From: a virus
Length of the DNA: 43,028 bases
Strand: one strand, 5' to 3'
Virus record (IMG/VR): IMGVR_UViG_3300017527_000281
Span: 1 to 43,028 of that record
A program made the position numbers and the translations under genes. Below the pieces are notes generated by a model. The model made no database searches and was not told the DNA's origin. It saw only the letters and a list, made by a program, of their open reading frames with translations. Below, piece after piece: positions 27,557 through 42,010 of this stretch. How positions within the stretch are numbered: the first letter of the stretch is position 1; the number at the start of each line of letters is the position of its first letter.

Positions 27557-28299
27557 GCTACCGCCCTTGTAGCATCTGCTCTCACCCTACACCTGCCCAT
27601 CGCCGGCGTGGTAACATCGGTCCCGTCTGCCCATTGAATGTCATAACTCAGTTTGGCAGTAGGCGTTAGCTCATCCGTAGCCGTCGGGTTCATCCAGATC
27701 GTGATGTCCCCGGCCACGGCGTCAGTAACGGTAATCGTGCCCTCTGCCGCGCGGGTTGCACTCACATCCTCCCCGTTCAGGATCATCAGTCCGGTCGTCT
27801 CGCCGATCATAATAATGGCGTCTGCATCCAAGTCGTCGAGCTGTTCCTTGACCGTGAACCAGACCTTCTCACCTGCGCGCGTGCTGATGTCCCCGAGGTC
27901 TGCGACGTCCTGGTCCATAGAGTCGCCACGGTAAATCAGGATCTCGCCTGCCGCAGCCGTGGCCGTACTCGCCACCACCGCATCAGAGAGATCGGACAGG
28001 ACCACCGTGCTTGTAGGAATTGTGATCCCGCCATCGTCCCATTCAGCGCCGGCAGCATCCGACCATCTCAGGTTGACATTGGTCGCGTTCGTCTCGGCCT
28101 GAGTGGGCAGCCACCTCACCCAACCGCTGCCCGCTGGGGTCTCCGCTGGCAACACAGCCGGGTTAGCCTCTGCGCCCCCGTCCAGGCTGACCTTAAAATC
28201 CCCCGCCGCAATCGTGGGGGTAGTGATGGTATCGACGCCACTGAATAGCATCAGGAACACTGCCTGGCTTGCCGTATTCCTTTTCATTGGGACTGTCAT
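27553..28299 (-). CDS. Beta-sandwich virion protein
   Basis: 248 residues. MTVPMKRNTASQAVFLMLFSGVDTITTPTIAAGDFKVSLDGG begins a repeated Ig-like beta-sandwich pattern found in phage structural proteins (FKVSLDGG...ANPAVLPAETPAGSGWVRWLP). A second half (VWFTVKEQLDDLDADAIIMIGE and GTITVTDAVAGDITIWMNPT) suggests two or three domains. Its position before the terminase is unusual for a virion protein. It may belong to fibres or appendages. The start ATG overlaps the neighbouring glycosidase gene end. Confidence 0.55.
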   Translation of the reverse strand: MTVPMKRNTASQAVFLMLFSGVDTITTPTIAAGDFKVSLDGGAEANPAVLPAETPAGSGWVRWLPTQAETNATNVNLRWSDAAGAEWDDGGITIPTSTVVLSDLSDAVVASTATAAAGEILIYRGDSMDQDVADLGDISTRAGEKVWFTVKEQLDDLDADAIIMIGETTGLMILNGEDVSATRAAEGTITVTDAVAGDITIWMNPTATDELTPTAKLSYDIQWADGTDVTTPAMGRCRVRADATRAVA

Positions 28300-29216
28300 T
28301 GACTGTATACCTCACCGAACGGGGTCAAGGCCCCATCCAAGACCAGCGATGTGTCGTATTCGCCCCACCAAAAGTCTGTCAGGTCCAGAGCGAACCAAGC
28401 CCAACGAGTGACGGTCGGCTGAGCTTGAAACCAAGCAATCATTGCCGTCATATAGTCAATGGGTTTCTGCGGATCGCCCCTTGGTTGAACAGCGAATTCT
28501 GTTACCCAGACCTCAGGAATGCCATGCTCTGCCGCAAAGTCAATGGCAGCTTGGACGTCGTTTATGCTCCGTTGAATAAGTGTACTTGCCAGTGCATCCC
28601 CAGGAATTTGTGGGTAGCTGTGAATTGCAAGCGCATCCATTCGTGGCTGTTCCCCATACTGCTGCTCATAGTAAAAGTGAAAGTCCTCCGACCACCAGAG
28701 ATGAACTACTGCCGGACCAATGAGTTTCTTGTCAGGGTGCAGAGATTCAACATACCGATAGTAGGCCGCCGCCTCGTGTGGTGTGAGGTTCGCCTGACTC
28801 TGAAACTCTGGCTCGTTGAACACCTGCAGCCACTCGGAATTACCCTGCACCGAGACGTGTATCTGTGTCTCGTCCCATATCATCGGCACGGCCTCGACGC
28901 CCGCGCATTGAATCGGATACGGTGTCCAGTCGTGATACCACTCTACCCCGGACATCGTGAGTGCCGGGCATAGCCAGTCCGCTTCACCCTGTACCCATTT
29001 CCGATCGTGCCCCACGCCCTGCAGGTTCACCGGGGCAGCCGCCGGCGGGAATGCCTTGTCACCGCCCATCACCACCGGGATATAGAGCATCGAGAGTGGC
29101 GACCGTAGCGGGCTAGGCAGCGGACTTTGCGCAATCGCCGGTCCACTCTGGCCCAACCACCACGCGATCGCGGCGGACAGGAGCAGGATGACCAGGACGA
29201 CAAAAGCGCGCCTCAC
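28296..29216 (-). CDS. Signal-anchored glycoside-hydrolase-like protein
   Basis: 306 residues. Residues 1-30 are a signal peptide or membrane anchor (MRRAFVVLVILLLSAAIAWW), followed by a Ser/Pro spacer (SPLPSPLRSPLS) and YIPVVMGG. From residue 60 it resembles a TIM-barrel glycosyl hydrolase of the GH128-like catalytic core: LQVFNEPE gives a possible acid/base E135 and VWVTEFAV a possible nucleophile E240; LAIHSYP lies between. It may be secreted to act on the cell surface, or be part of the virion. The spacer style resembles exported Chloroflexota proteins. The substrate is unknown. Confidence 0.65.
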   Translation of the reverse strand: MRRAFVVLVILLLSAAIAWWLGQSGPAIAQSPLPSPLRSPLSMLYIPVVMGGDKAFPPAAAPVNLQGVGHDRKWVQGEADWLCPALTMSGVEWYHDWTPYPIQCAGVEAVPMIWDETQIHVSVQGNSEWLQVFNEPEFQSQANLTPHEAAAYYRYVESLHPDKKLIGPAVVHLWWSEDFHFYYEQQYGEQPRMDALAIHSYPQIPGDALASTLIQRSINDVQAAIDFAAEHGIPEVWVTEFAVQPRGDPQKPIDYMTAMIAWFQAQPTVTRWAWFALDLTDFWWGEYDTSLVLDGALTPFGEVYSQ

Positions 29217-35200: not shown

Positions 35201-35341
35201 CAGAAGTACAAGCCGTCCCAACGGCTCATAGACAGCGAGGCTGATCCGCTCCCTTGTGAGGGTCGGTGGTCGTGTTTGGTGCAAGCCTCGCTCGCCTATC
35301 GACCTTGGGCCGACCTTCACAAGAGCGCGGATCTTTGTTTT
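35201..35341 (+). promoter_or_regulatory. Structured leader with terminator-like hairpin
   Basis: A small hairpin (AGCCGT/ACGGCT, 35211-35226) is followed by two helices: A, 35234-35242 with 35284-35292 (9 perfect pairs), and B, 35243-35266 with 35310-35333 (21 Watson-Crick pairs, one GU, two mismatches). B is followed by TTTGTTTT, as in an intrinsic terminator. A and B cross in order, so they form a pseudoknot or exclude each other. The ribosome site follows at 35342. An attenuator or RNA switch is inferred. Confidence 0.65.
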
Positions 35342-35357
35342 AGGAGGAGTCGAGAGA

Positions 35358-37682
35358 ATGAACCCGTATCAGGAGTTTCTCAAGTCCAAGATTCTGATGG
35401 TACCGCCAAAAGGAAAAGAGGTAGACCCAAACGACATCCACCCGCTGTTGTTCCCTTTTCAGCGTGATGTCACCACATGGTCAATTCGCAAGGGACGCGC
35501 TGCCGTGTTTCTGGACACAGGACTCGGAAAGACCTTTGTCCAGCTTGAGTGGGCGCGGCTGATAGGAGAAAATACGCTCATCATTGCGCCGCTATCTGTG
35601 TCCCGGCAGACTGTGCGAGAAGCGCAAAAGATCGATCTCGATGTTCGGTATGTTCGGGGAATGGACGAAATGGACCCCAACCACAAACTGTGGATCACCA
35701 ACTATGAGATGGCAGAGCATTTTGACATGTCGCAGTTTGGCGCCGTGGTGCTGGATGAGTCGAGCATACTCAAGGCCATCAACAGCAAAACTCGCAAGCG
35801 CCTGACAGAAACCTGCCAAGTCATACCCTATCGGCTGTGTTGCACCGCTACTCCTGCACCTAATGATTACATCGAGATCGGCAATCATGCTCAATTCCTG
35901 GGCATTGCCTCCCAGTCTGAAATGTTGGCGATGTTTTTCATCAATGCCAATAAAGAGCACACCTATACCTATGGCGGCAAGACCTATCACCGCAAGGGCA
36001 GCAACAAGGGCGGGCAGGAGTGGCGGCTCAAGCATCACGGAGAGCAAGCGTTTTTCCGCTGGCTGTCCACCTGGGCAATCACGATGACAAAGCCCTCTGA
36101 CCTCGGCTACGATGATGATGGATTCATTTTGCCGCCCTTGAATATCATCCCCACATTTGTCCAGATTGACAACTATGAGGCTGACGATCAACTATTCTTT
36201 ACACATCTGAAAGGCATCAAACACAGATCCCAGGTACGCCGGGATACGTTACCACAACGGCTCGAAGTGCTGGCAGAGCTGGTCAACAACTCGGACGAAC
36301 AGTGGATTATATGGGCGGGGCTGAACGAGGAAAGCAAAGCCGCCACGGCCGCGATCGATGGCGCCGTAGAGGTACGCGGAGATCAGCCACCAGATTACAA
36401 GGCTCAGACCTTTGAGCAGTTCCAAGACGGCGAGGTCAAGGTGCTAGTCACCAAGACAAAGATCGGCGGGTTCGGCCTCAACATGCAGAATGCCCACAAC
36501 ATGGCATTTCTTGGGTTGTCCGATAGTTGGGAGAGCTACTATCAGGCTGTTCGCCGAGAGTGGAGATACCGACAGAAATATCCGGTCAACGTCCATATCA
36601 TTATGTCATCGCTTGAATCAGAGATATACCAGAACGTGATGCGCAAAGACGCAATGGCCGCACGGCTGCGGTCTGGTTTGGTTGAACAAATCAAAGAATA
36701 TGAGAAAGGGGAACTTGAGATGATAGACACAGAGCGCAGCATTTATGATGAGGACATTGTGCAAGGCGAAAACTGGACCGCGATGCTAGGCGATTCCTGT
36801 AAGCGAATGGGAGAGATCGCAACAGACAGCATTGACTTGTCTGTGTACTCGCCCCCTTTTGCAGACCTGTACACATACACAGACTCAGAGCGTGACCTCG
36901 GCAACTGCAAAGATTGGGGCGAGTTCTTTGGACACTATGCCTACATCGTGCGGGAGCTGCTCAGAATCACCAAGCCGGGACGCTTGACCTGCTGTCACTG
37001 TATGGACATTCCCGCAATGATGCAAAAAGACGGCTGGATGGGCCTGAAAGACTTTTCCGGCGCTCTCATTCAGGCATACACCCAAGAGGGCTGGACGCTT
37101 CACGATCGAGTTGTTATTGACAAGAACCCGCAGGCGCAGGCTATCCGCACTCACTCCCACGGGCTGCTGTTCAAGACCCTGGACAAAGACTCGATCCGCT
37201 CTCACACTGCTATACCCGATCAGATACTTGTGTTCCGCAAGGATGGCGATAACCAGAATCCAGTACGCCCAGTCGAAAACGGCGATATGGATAATGAGGT
37301 CTGGATTCAGTGGGCGCGCCCGATCTGGTATGCCGCTGATTATACCCCGGCACAATTGCCCAATCCAGGCGGCGGCATCTCTGAGACGGGAACGCTGCAG
37401 TTCGGCAAGGCGCGGGGCACAGGAGACGAGAAGCACATCTGCCCACTGCAGCTCGGAACCATCGAGCGGTGCATCAAACTGTGGAGCAACCCCGGCGAGA
37501 CTGTTTTCAGCCCGTTCGCCGGCATTGGCAGTGAGGGATACCAGGCTTTGAGCTTTGGGCGCAAGTTCATCGGGATCGAATTGAAACCGTCTTACTTTGC
37601 GATTATGCTGGAGAATCTCAACAAGTCTGAAATCAAAGCCAATACGCCTGACCTGTTCTCCTTGGCAGGGATTGCGGTATGA
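35358..37682 (+). CDS. SNF2-type helicase/DNA methyltransferase fusion
   Basis: 774 residues; ATG with TAGGAGGAG upstream. Helicase part: DTGLGKT (53-59, Walker A), VLDES (131-135, motif II), TATPAPND (163-170, motif III), KTKIGGFGLNMQNAH (366-380, motif V) and QAVRREWRYRQ (396-406, motif VI). Methyltransferase part: VYSPPF (496-501, catalytic motif IV) precedes FAGIGSEG (720-727, SAM motif I) and FIGIELKPSYF, the beta-class order of N6-adenine/N4-cytosine enzymes. The fusion probably modifies DNA while remodelling it, for replication or restriction evasion. The end overlaps the next gene by ATGA. Confidence 0.88.
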   Translation: MNPYQEFLKSKILMVPPKGKEVDPNDIHPLLFPFQRDVTTWSIRKGRAAVFLDTGLGKTFVQLEWARLIGENTLIIAPLSVSRQTVREAQKIDLDVRYVRGMDEMDPNHKLWITNYEMAEHFDMSQFGAVVLDESSILKAINSKTRKRLTETCQVIPYRLCCTATPAPNDYIEIGNHAQFLGIASQSEMLAMFFINANKEHTYTYGGKTYHRKGSNKGGQEWRLKHHGEQAFFRWLSTWAITMTKPSDLGYDDDGFILPPLNIIPTFVQIDNYEADDQLFFTHLKGIKHRSQVRRDTLPQRLEVLAELVNNSDEQWIIWAGLNEESKAATAAIDGAVEVRGDQPPDYKAQTFEQFQDGEVKVLVTKTKIGGFGLNMQNAHNMAFLGLSDSWESYYQAVRREWRYRQKYPVNVHIIMSSLESEIYQNVMRKDAMAARLRSGLVEQIKEYEKGELEMIDTERSIYDEDIVQGENWTAMLGDSCKRMGEIATDSIDLSVYSPPFADLYTYTDSERDLGNCKDWGEFFGHYAYIVRELLRITKPGRLTCCHCMDIPAMMQKDGWMGLKDFSGALIQAYTQEGWTLHDRVVIDKNPQAQAIRTHSHGLLFKTLDKDSIRSHTAIPDQILVFRKDGDNQNPVRPVENGDMDNEVWIQWARPIWYAADYTPAQLPNPGGGISETGTLQFGKARGTGDEKHICPLQLGTIERCIKLWSNPGETVFSPFAGIGSEGYQALSFGRKFIGIELKPSYFAIMLENLNKSEIKANTPDLFSLAGIAV

Positions 37683-38455
37683 GAAAATACGATCTGCCCG
37701 TTGATATGATTTTCAGCATCACGCCTACAGACCCCCTTGCCTTTATGGCGGCGCGAATGGGGTTCTTGATTGGCACAAACAGCGGGCAGAAATGTCTGGT
37801 GGAACGCCCAGAACATTATACATGGGCATTCCCTATTTCTTTCATAGACAATGAATTCAAGAAGTACGACCACGATGCACATATGGCAGCAATCAAGCAG
37901 CATCGGCCCAAATATGCCACTGTGCGAGATGCAATGACCTCAGTGCAATGCTGTCGCGCAGGGATTGAGCATTTTGACCTTGACATCATCCTGGCGTGGG
38001 CTGAGGAAGTAGAGCAGTATGCCGAGAACGTGATAGTCATTCCCAAGTGGGATTGTTTGGCAGAAATTCCAGAACGATTCATCCTGGGATACTCGATACC
38101 ATCACGCTATGCTGGAACCCCTCTCCCTTTTGAGATGTTCAGAGGCCGAAAGATTCACCTGCTCGGCGGTAGTTGGAAAAAGCAACTCAAATACCTGCAA
38201 TTTGCCAAAGATGACATCGTAAGCCTGGACAATAACAATCTCTGGAAATGCTCAGTGTATGGGGGATTCGACTGGCCCGATGGCAAGAAGGGATCGCTCC
38301 ATGATCTAGGAATCACAGAACTAACTAGCCCGATGTATGCCAGCGTAGCAATGAGTCTCGGGCATATCGCCACAAAGCTACATCAACTCTACAACGAACC
38401 ACAAAAATCAATCGAATTCGCAGTACAACTACCAGGAATGGAGAAAGTGACATGA
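37679..38455 (+). CDS. DpdA-like DNA transglycosylase (candidate)
   Basis: 258 residues. IVIPKWDCLAEIPERFILGYSIPSRYAGTPLPFEMF followed by RGRKIHLLGGSWKKQLKYLQFAKDDIVSLD resembles phage DpdA/TGT-like proteins (TIM barrel), which exchange guanine in DNA for a 7-deazaguanine base. DxxILAWAEEVEQYAENV is another barrel block. The length (258) is shorter than DpdA1. The following gene is a YhhQ-type queuosine-precursor transporter, which makes this function more likely. It overlaps both neighbours. Tests of the active site and of 7-deazaguanine in the virion DNA are lacking. Confidence 0.6.
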   Translation: MRKYDLPVDMIFSITPTDPLAFMAARMGFLIGTNSGQKCLVERPEHYTWAFPISFIDNEFKKYDHDAHMAAIKQHRPKYATVRDAMTSVQCCRAGIEHFDLDIILAWAEEVEQYAENVIVIPKWDCLAEIPERFILGYSIPSRYAGTPLPFEMFRGRKIHLLGGSWKKQLKYLQFAKDDIVSLDNNNLWKCSVYGGFDWPDGKKGSLHDLGITELTSPMYASVAMSLGHIATKLHQLYNEPQKSIEFAVQLPGMEKVT

Positions 38456-39030
38456 TTGTAATTTGTGCATACATCGCCGCTCAGATGTTTTCAGACATTA
38501 TGAGCCTCAAGATAGTCTCGTTATTTGGTCTTTCAATGGACGCGGGAACCCTGATCTATCCCATCACGTTCACGCTCCGCGATTTGGTCCACAAGACATT
38601 AGGCAAACAGAAAGCACGGCAGCTCATTGTTGTCGCCGCCGCCATCAATGTCGTGATGGCATTGCTCTTTTGGGTAACAAGCATCCTGCCATACGACTTG
38701 GGCGCAGGACCACAACCAGATTGGGATAGCGTTCTCGCTCCTGTATGGCGCATCGTTGTGGCTTCGATTGTGGCCGAAGTGCTCAGTGAGTTTCTGGACA
38801 CAGAAATGTATCACCTGTGGGTCACAAAGATCACGCAGCGATACCAGTGGATGCGCGTGTTGGTCAGTAATACAGTTTCGGTTCCTGTTGACAGCCTGGT
38901 CTTTTGCTGGATCGCTTTTGGTGGCATCCTGCCGGCAGCTATCGTGTGGGCAATTGTGTGGGCCAATGTTCTGCTCAAGGGTGCCTGCACTCTGCTTTCA
39001 TTACCTATGATCTACGCAGTCAAAGAGTAA
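38452..39030 (+). CDS. YhhQ/QPTR-type queuosine-precursor transporter
   Basis: 192 residues, ATGA overlap with the previous gene. FSDIMSLKIVSLFGLSMDAGTLIYPITFTLRDLVHKTLGKQKAR matches the COG1738 (YhhQ, Vut) signature. About six hydrophobic segments (near 2-20, 32-46, 57-80, 95-115, 140-158, 162-185) alternate with short loops; a DTEMYHLW and VTKITQRY loop follow the fourth. It should import preQ0, preQ1 or queuine into the cell. The coupling with a DpdA-like gene suggests supply of 7-deazaguanine for phage DNA or for tRNA modification. Confidence 0.8.
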   Translation: MIVICAYIAAQMFSDIMSLKIVSLFGLSMDAGTLIYPITFTLRDLVHKTLGKQKARQLIVVAAAINVVMALLFWVTSILPYDLGAGPQPDWDSVLAPVWRIVVASIVAEVLSEFLDTEMYHLWVTKITQRYQWMRVLVSNTVSVPVDSLVFCWIAFGGILPAAIVWAIVWANVLLKGACTLLSLPMIYAVKE

Positions 39031-40867: not shown

Positions 40868-41316
40868 CTCTCCTAGCCCTAGACGCCAGCACAACCGCCG
40901 TGGGGTGGGCGCTGTTTGACGACGGTGACTACCGCGAGTCGGGCGTGTACGTGCCGGACGGCGATGACTGGGTAGAGCGGGTGATCAACATTGACCGCTG
41001 GCTGTACAACCTGTGCCTCGAGTTCGACGCGGTAGGCTACGAGATCGCCACAGGCAACCGGGGGAATATGGCAACCAACCGGAAACTAGGCGCGGTAGAG
41101 TTTGTGGTGCGCCAGTTCTGCAAGCTGCAGCATATGGAGCTGACCACCGTCACCGCGTCACAAGTCAAGGCGACGGGATGTCACAAGAACGCACCGTGGG
41201 TAGCGACGACGATCAAGCGGGGCCGGTTCCCCGAGGCCGACGTGGTGGGTGGCGACGAGGCCGACGCGATCGGCGTGGGCCTGGCGTGCTGGGGGAAGGT
41301 GAGGGCCAATGTCTGA
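40864..41316 (+). CDS. RuvC-like Holliday junction resolvase
   Basis: 150 residues from a GTG. LLALDASTTAVGWALFD is motif I (D7), FDAVGYEIATG supplies the second acidic residue, NRKLGAVEFVVRQF is the helix block, and ASQVKATGCHKN with DEADAIGVGLACW the last acidic pair. This is the RNase H-fold RuvC-type resolvase of phages, which cuts branched DNA before packaging. Length is typical. Confidence 0.75.
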   Translation: MTLLALDASTTAVGWALFDDGDYRESGVYVPDGDDWVERVINIDRWLYNLCLEFDAVGYEIATGNRGNMATNRKLGAVEFVVRQFCKLQHMELTTVTASQVKATGCHKNAPWVATTIKRGRFPEADVVGGDEADAIGVGLACWGKVRANV

Positions 41317-42010
41317 AATGATCAGTTTCGGTGCTGGCGTCAATAGCGTGGCGATGACCATTATGCTCGTGAACGACGGGTGGCGTGGCCCGATCGTGTT
41401 TGCGGACACCGGCGGGGAATGGCCTGAGACGTACTGCTATATCCGCTACTTTGAGCGGGAATGGTTGGGACCGAGGGGGTTGGAGATCACGCGACTGTCG
41501 CCAGGGTCGGAATGGCACGGGAAACGCGCGCAGGTGACGCTAGAGCAGTACTGTCTCGACCATGGTATTGTGCCATTGCTGGCGATGCGCTGGTGTACTC
41601 AGGCGTGGAAACAGCGGCCCGTCACAAAATGGGCGGGGGCCATGGTGCGCCTAGTGGGGCTGTCTGCCAGTGAACCGCGCCGCGCCGCACGGCAGGAGCC
41701 TGGCGTGCGCTTGCCGCTATTTGAGGAGTGTATCACCCGCGAGGAGTGCCAGCGCATCATCGCACGCGAGGGACTGGACTATCCGATCAAGTCAGGCTGT
41801 TTTTTCTGCCCTGGTCAACCGCTGGCGGCGTGGCGGCGATTGTACCACGAACACCCGGACCTATACGAGCGGGCGATCGCGCTTGAGGATAACGCCACGA
41901 CCGCGCTAGATCCTCACGGCATCAGCCTCCGAGAGCACGCCCGCCGCCGCTGGGAGGGGCAGATGCAGATGGATCTGAGTGCATGGATACCGTGTCTGTG
42001 TACGCTGTAA
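41309..42010 (+). CDS. PAPS-reductase-like (DndC-like) phage protein
   Basis: 233 residues. ISFGAGVNSVAMTIML takes the place of the PP-loop (normally SGGxDS), followed by IVFADTGGEWPETYCYI, the typical block of phage PAPS reductase/DndC-like proteins. RWCTQAWKQRPV, SGCFFCPGQP (two Cys) and ASEPRR fit the group, which has four Cys. An ATP-pyrophosphatase activity is possible; role unknown. In phages it may act in DNA modification or nucleotide metabolism. Overlaps the resolvase gene by 8 bases. Confidence 0.7.
   Translation: MSEMISFGAGVNSVAMTIMLVNDGWRGPIVFADTGGEWPETYCYIRYFEREWLGPRGLEITRLSPGSEWHGKRAQVTLEQYCLDHGIVPLLAMRWCTQAWKQRPVTKWAGAMVRLVGLSASEPRRAARQEPGVRLPLFEECITREECQRIIAREGLDYPIKSGCFFCPGQPLAAWRRLYHEHPDLYERAIALEDNATTALDPHGISLREHARRRWEGQMQMDLSAWIPCLCTL

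Follow-up and report, generated by a model that had tools for sequence, protein, structure and literature searches.

The virus analysed here very probably carries a two-gene, salvage-fed DNA modification module, for which we infer the chemistry, the DNA substrate and the protection. The window, i.e. the whole 43,028 nucleotide stretch of DNA that was analysed, pairs a predicted base-swapping enzyme with an importer, so the virus probably disguises its DNA without making the precursor itself. The transporter would carry preQ0 and/or preQ1 into the infected cell, and the DUF6610 enzyme, judging from its fold, motifs and relatives, would remove guanine from the phage DNA and insert the imported 7-deazaguanine. 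By analogy with known 7-deazaguanine phages, the modified genome would be less sensitive to host restriction. The precursor would not be made by the phage; related viruses have a full FolE-QueD-QueE-QueC operon instead of the importer. A first-pass annotation had proposed a minimal salvage-based DNA modification module, and sequence, predicted structure and comparative genomics support this proposal, the DNA modification itself being predicted from them.

The module lies on the plus strand. The first gene (37679..38455) encodes a 258 aa DUF6610 protein, a predicted DNA-guanine transglycosylase with a TGT-fold barrel according to PF20314, an AlphaFold2 model and PDB matches. The second gene (38452..39030) encodes a 192 aa hydrophobic membrane protein with several hydrophobic segments, a queuosine-precursor (preQ0/preQ1) transporter of the YhhQ/QPTR type by its matches to TIGR00697 and Vut_1. 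Both genes are found where the first-pass annotation had placed its overlapping pair, 37679-39030, and they share an ATGA (38452..38455, plus strand), an arrangement in the sequence that makes translational coupling of the transglycosylase and transporter genes probable. Another ATGA overlap on the same strand (37679..37682) joins the transglycosylase gene to the one before it (35256..37682, plus strand), which encodes a SNF2-type helicase fused to an N6/N4 DNA methyltransferase (PF01555 4.2e-17, Helicase_C 1.1e-8, SNF2 1e-5) and is the first of the overlapping run, followed by the transglycosylase and then the transporter. Proteins similar to this helicase-methyltransferase are also found near DUF6610 in loci L086 and L052. 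Relatives of the DUF6610 protein have about 40-48% identity and those of the transporter 45-64%, and the two genes stand side by side in other viruses. As both proteins are conserved and paired in other viruses, the gene pair goes far beyond chance. Elsewhere in the window there are a PAPS-reductase-like protein at 41309-42010 (PF01507 4.5e-5, phrog_424 1.7e-37) and, close to the packaging genes, a Glycosyl hydrolase catalytic core at 28296-29216 on the minus strand (PF11790, E 3e-32).

According to its profile match, the 258-residue protein belongs to DUF6610 (PF20314), a Pfam family of unknown function (128.9 bits against a curated Pfam cut-off of 27, E 2.6e-37). AlphaFold2, given an alignment of 25 sequences, folds it into a TIM barrel of eight strands alternating with helices, with a pLDDT of 90.8 and a pTM of 0.88. 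The first-pass annotation had set a structure prediction without a TGT barrel as grounds for giving up its reading; the barrel is confidently predicted, and the best 50 matches of the model in the PDB by Foldseek are all TGTs. VIA-align aligns 241 residues to the archaeosine TGT 1iq8 with a Z of 14.3 and an rmsd of 3.9, well above the level the tool quotes as usual for models without a clear match, and among its best 50 matches listed TGT accounts for 50 out of 50. Among viral models, a ParB/DUF6610-type phage protein and an HCTV-1 protein match best, and a phage queuine tRNA-ribosyltransferase comes next. In the predicted model the barrel is thus closest to TGT, which places the protein in the TGT-fold base-exchange superfamily by fold.

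The conserved residues agree with this placement in their order. D57, D84, P122, G137, H160, L162-G163-G164, S182 and D184 are invariant in the 25 aligned sequences, and the series D57, D84, P122, G137, H160-LLGG, S-x-D184 is almost wholly invariant in the same 25 and has the same order as in five phage DpdA/TGT-like proteins. Asp57 (codon 37847..37849, plus strand) sits in an F-I-D-N motif where strand 3 of the modelled barrel ends, and we propose it as the counterpart of the general-base Asp in the TGT/DpdA 'DSGxF' motif, assigned by strand order and not by superposition. Asp184 (codon 38228..38230, plus strand), in an S-L-D-N motif where barrel strand 8 ends, is likewise invariant and is the proposed nucleophile, corresponding to the DpdA 'S-x-D-S' motif, again by strand order without superposition. 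The two catalytic aspartates of the superfamily are thus represented at the ends of strands 3 and 8, with the equivalence assigned by strand order.

By sequence the protein is more isolated. A sequence search of the PDB gives no match for either the DUF6610 protein or the transporter. The canonical tRNA TGT family (PF01702) has no Pfam match anywhere in the 43,028-base record, there is no CxCxxC of the canonical TGT zinc site (CxCxxC...H) in the 258 residues, and the protein has no match to the Pfam DpdA family (PF23859) up to E 1. Profile-profile comparison of DUF6610 with the five phage DpdA-like proteins gives nothing significant, and therefore the kinship with DpdA rests on structure and motif order. 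The protein at 37679-38455 has a predicted TGT fold and a DpdA-like order of motifs, yet no match to Pfam TGT or Pfam DpdA; we predict DpdA-like activity for a protein that lies outside the DpdA Pfam family. The DpdA-like enzyme that the first-pass annotation had suggested stands as to fold and motif order, but not as to family, which is DUF6610. In the literature searched, no mention of DUF6610 was found. Cui et al. 2023 reportedly named a DpdA4 of archaeal viruses, and DUF6610 may be the same as DpdA4, so that the family may already be known by that name.

The transporter belongs to the TIGR00697 equivalog 'queuosine precursor transporter' (107.4 bits against a cut-off of 50.95), which bears out the YhhQ-type importer of the first-pass annotation, and it matches Vut_1 with an E of 2.4e-38. 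From membership in this equivalog family, the product of 38452-39030 would import preQ0 and/or preQ1. Substrates vary among QPTR members, with preQ0/preQ1 in E. coli and queuine in Chlamydia (PMC11130926). For eight of the nine phage-collection records that match the window transporter (MS1, phiFN37, phiLM21 in two records, RHph_N3_2, HCTV-1 in two records, and HCTV-16), a TGT-type or DUF6610 gene is adjacent or close by; in HCTV-16 the DUF6610 and transporter matches are about 1.1 kb apart. The ninth record (MT836020, 'Bacteriophage sp.', 13.8 kb) was not counted as a phage, as its genes resemble a bacterial chromosome; in it the genes for the transporter, queC and a QueF-like protein follow one another (L012).

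No synthesis genes accompany the pair. Family searches over all 43,028 bases of the record, with working positive controls, found no match to QueC (PF06508), PTPS/QueD (PF01242), FolE (PF01227), QueF (PF14489) or Radical_SAM (PF04055), and QueE was not found in the 43 kb record either, which confirms the absence noted by the first-pass annotation for this record. The record is labelled 'linear' and may be incomplete, which leaves room for synthesis genes beyond it. Given that there is no QueF in the record, the expected base would be dPreQ0, or else dPreQ1 should preQ1 be taken up or come from the host.

To see how the precursor is supplied in related viruses, neighbourhoods of the relatives were classed with one profile per pathway gene. 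When either of the two window proteins was used singly to scan viral contigs, no relatives came up, but alignment-based scans of viral contigs and bacterial genomes gave them, at about 40-48% identity. The count covers 31 non-redundant loci in one clade that includes the window (SH-aLRT 99). The transporter is found without FolE or QueD in 17 of these, among them the window, and FolE, QueD, QueE and QueC are found together without the transporter in eleven, while three have neither. No locus out of 31 has both the transporter and the full synthesis set (Fisher p 4e-6, or 5e-8 minus the three loci with neither, a test that treats related loci as independent, so the p-value overstates their independence). 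According to the tree there have been at least four switches between the transporter and the synthesis states. Whole-record searches did not find FolE in the transporter-bearing virus records tested, nor the transporter in the synthesis records. QueF is present at all synthesis loci and at some transporter loci, but not in the window. One enzyme is supplied by either import or synthesis, and the two behave as interchangeable.

YhhQ, QueF and QueC are found beside DUF6610, with no FolE or QueD, in three related loci, L020/L067, L021/L077 and L052, where an intermediate before preQ0 may be imported or borrowed. More distant DUF6610 proteins (L083-L096) are without the ParB domain described below, and the stretches read around them contain no transporter or synthesis genes. 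On haloarchaeal plasmids, too, DUF6610 proteins are common (85 records), and they may act there on nucleic acid of the host or of the plasmid, modifying it.

All intact relatives in the clade have an N-terminal ParB-like domain, which is absent from the DUF6610 protein of the window, and no ParB of the relatives' kind is found elsewhere in the window. In the Fusobacterium phage phiFN37 a free-standing ParB-like gene (L009 3264-3758) stands directly upstream of the genes for the transglycosylase, DUF6884 and the transporter, and it matches the ParB domain of the DUF6610 fusions. Our guess is that the ParB domain directs the enzyme to DNA. In the Mycobacterium phage Knocker a ParB-DUF6610 protein occurs together with a DpdA-like gene that is separate from it, and the two kinds of protein may therefore not do the same job. 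Knocker gp2 (L003 1310-1702) is annotated as a GTP cyclohydrolase I but groups with QueF by profile (E 5e-41), a profile of which it was itself a seed.

The closest transporter, with 64% identity, is on a 4 kb contig that belongs to a Chloroflexota bin (L044). This 6.3 Mb bin contains a TGT, FolE, PTPS and a second Vut_1; QueC has no match in it, and bins can be incomplete or mixed. Such a gene content would be consistent with a possible host that has its own precursor salvage.

This bin bears on a different account of the supply, in which the phage uses precursor made by its host and the transporter is either just a supplement or a chance acquisition. Salmonella phage 7-11 has DpdA alone and shows trace-level DNA modification (PMC6884629), and HF2-type haloviruses have DUF6610 with no transporter or synthesis genes nearby, as this account would allow. 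We consider it unlikely, since the transporter and synthesis genes never occur together in the clade and have been exchanged at least four times, which is unexpected from chance acquisition, and the bin with the close relative shows no QueC match. The transporter could also bring in another compound, e.g. queuine or another purine, so that a different, unknown base is inserted into the DNA. QPTR members do differ in substrate (PMC11130926), and the three related loci in which YhhQ, QueF and QueC occur without QueD and FolE would fit the import of an earlier intermediate. The window, however, has no QueC or QueF to process such an intermediate, and in relatives a preQ0 operon takes the importer's place, an exchange that suggests preQ0/preQ1 as the common product and makes another substrate very unlikely.

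It is most improbable that the pair serves tRNA, with the imported base put into host or phage tRNA in the manner of queuosine and aiding translation late in infection. The fold is indeed that of the tRNA TGTs, and YhhQ feeds tRNA queuosine in bacteria (PMC5372724). However, the protein is much shorter than a TGT and has neither the CxCxxC zinc motif nor a Pfam TGT match, both cellular bins examined have a TGT of their own, and no QueA, QueG or QueH turned up in 7-deazaguanine viruses (PMC6884629). The ParB fusion in the relatives suggests a DNA target, and the DNA of HVTV-1 contains a 7-deazaguanine (PMC6884629), for which DUF6610 is the only visible candidate enzyme.

Returning to the DNA modification module, we lean towards a wider reading, in which the DUF6610 proteins of bacterial viruses make up a viral DNA-guanine transglycosylase family of their own with a modular supply, import and synthesis having been exchanged repeatedly. 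In the import form, both modification and restriction resistance would depend on a precursor that the cell takes from its surroundings. With this, a Pfam family so far without a known function would gain a likely one and, if the reading is true, the protection of some phages from restriction would depend on a scavenged micronutrient.

Several known systems resemble parts of the module. Phages 9g, CAjan and Rosebush (PMC6884629) have, like the window, a TGT-fold transglycosylase linked to 7-deazaguanines, but the window is without their synthesis genes and its enzyme is DUF6610 with no PF23859 match. In HVTV-1, dPreQ1 is present in the DNA, yet a DpdA was not found (PMC6884629); its gp69, beside FolE among the preQ0 genes, is DUF6610, which we suggest as the missing transglycosylase of this halovirus. 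HCTV-1 and HCTV-16, in which YhhQ was reported in 2021 (PMC8651126), also have a DUF6610 protein and, as in HVTV-1, it adjoins preQ0 genes. These three viruses are archaeal with full synthesis, whereas the window comes from a bacterial-type virus with the importer only. For Sinorhizobium phage phiLM21 (p025-p026), Rhizobium phage RHph_N3_2 and phage phiFN37, a TGT/DpdA-type gene is zero to one genes from a Vut_1 transporter, and no synthesis genes were found in the stretches read. Their transglycosylases belong to PF23859 or phrog_887 and not to DUF6610, so the pairing arose with different enzymes; MS1 also pairs the transporter with a transglycosylase of another family.

The coupling of a transporter to a transglycosylase in phage and the idea of uptake, both raised by the first-pass annotation, are supported here but are not new (PMC6266253, PMC6884629). 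The first report of a preQ0/preQ1 transporter in a phage, in 2018, concerned Pantoea phage Vid5 and put forward salvage (PMC6266253). Like the window, Vid5 has a phage Vut_1/COG1738 transporter in a 7-deazaguanine cluster, but it has synthesis genes too, and its transporter is an addition and not a replacement (PMC6266253). Hutinet et al. 2019 described a third group of phages with DpdA only, which lack synthesis genes like the window, and suggested uptake of exogenous precursor; they found YhhQ in some phages, uncorrelated with any phage group (PMC6884629). In contrast to that survey, which did not find such a pattern, the transporter and synthesis are mutually exclusive here within one enzyme clade. 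The module of the window is a minimal and salvage-fed form, with a DUF6610 transglycosylase that is without the ParB domain of its relatives, and what is new is the either/or supply pattern around this transglycosylase in bacterial viruses.
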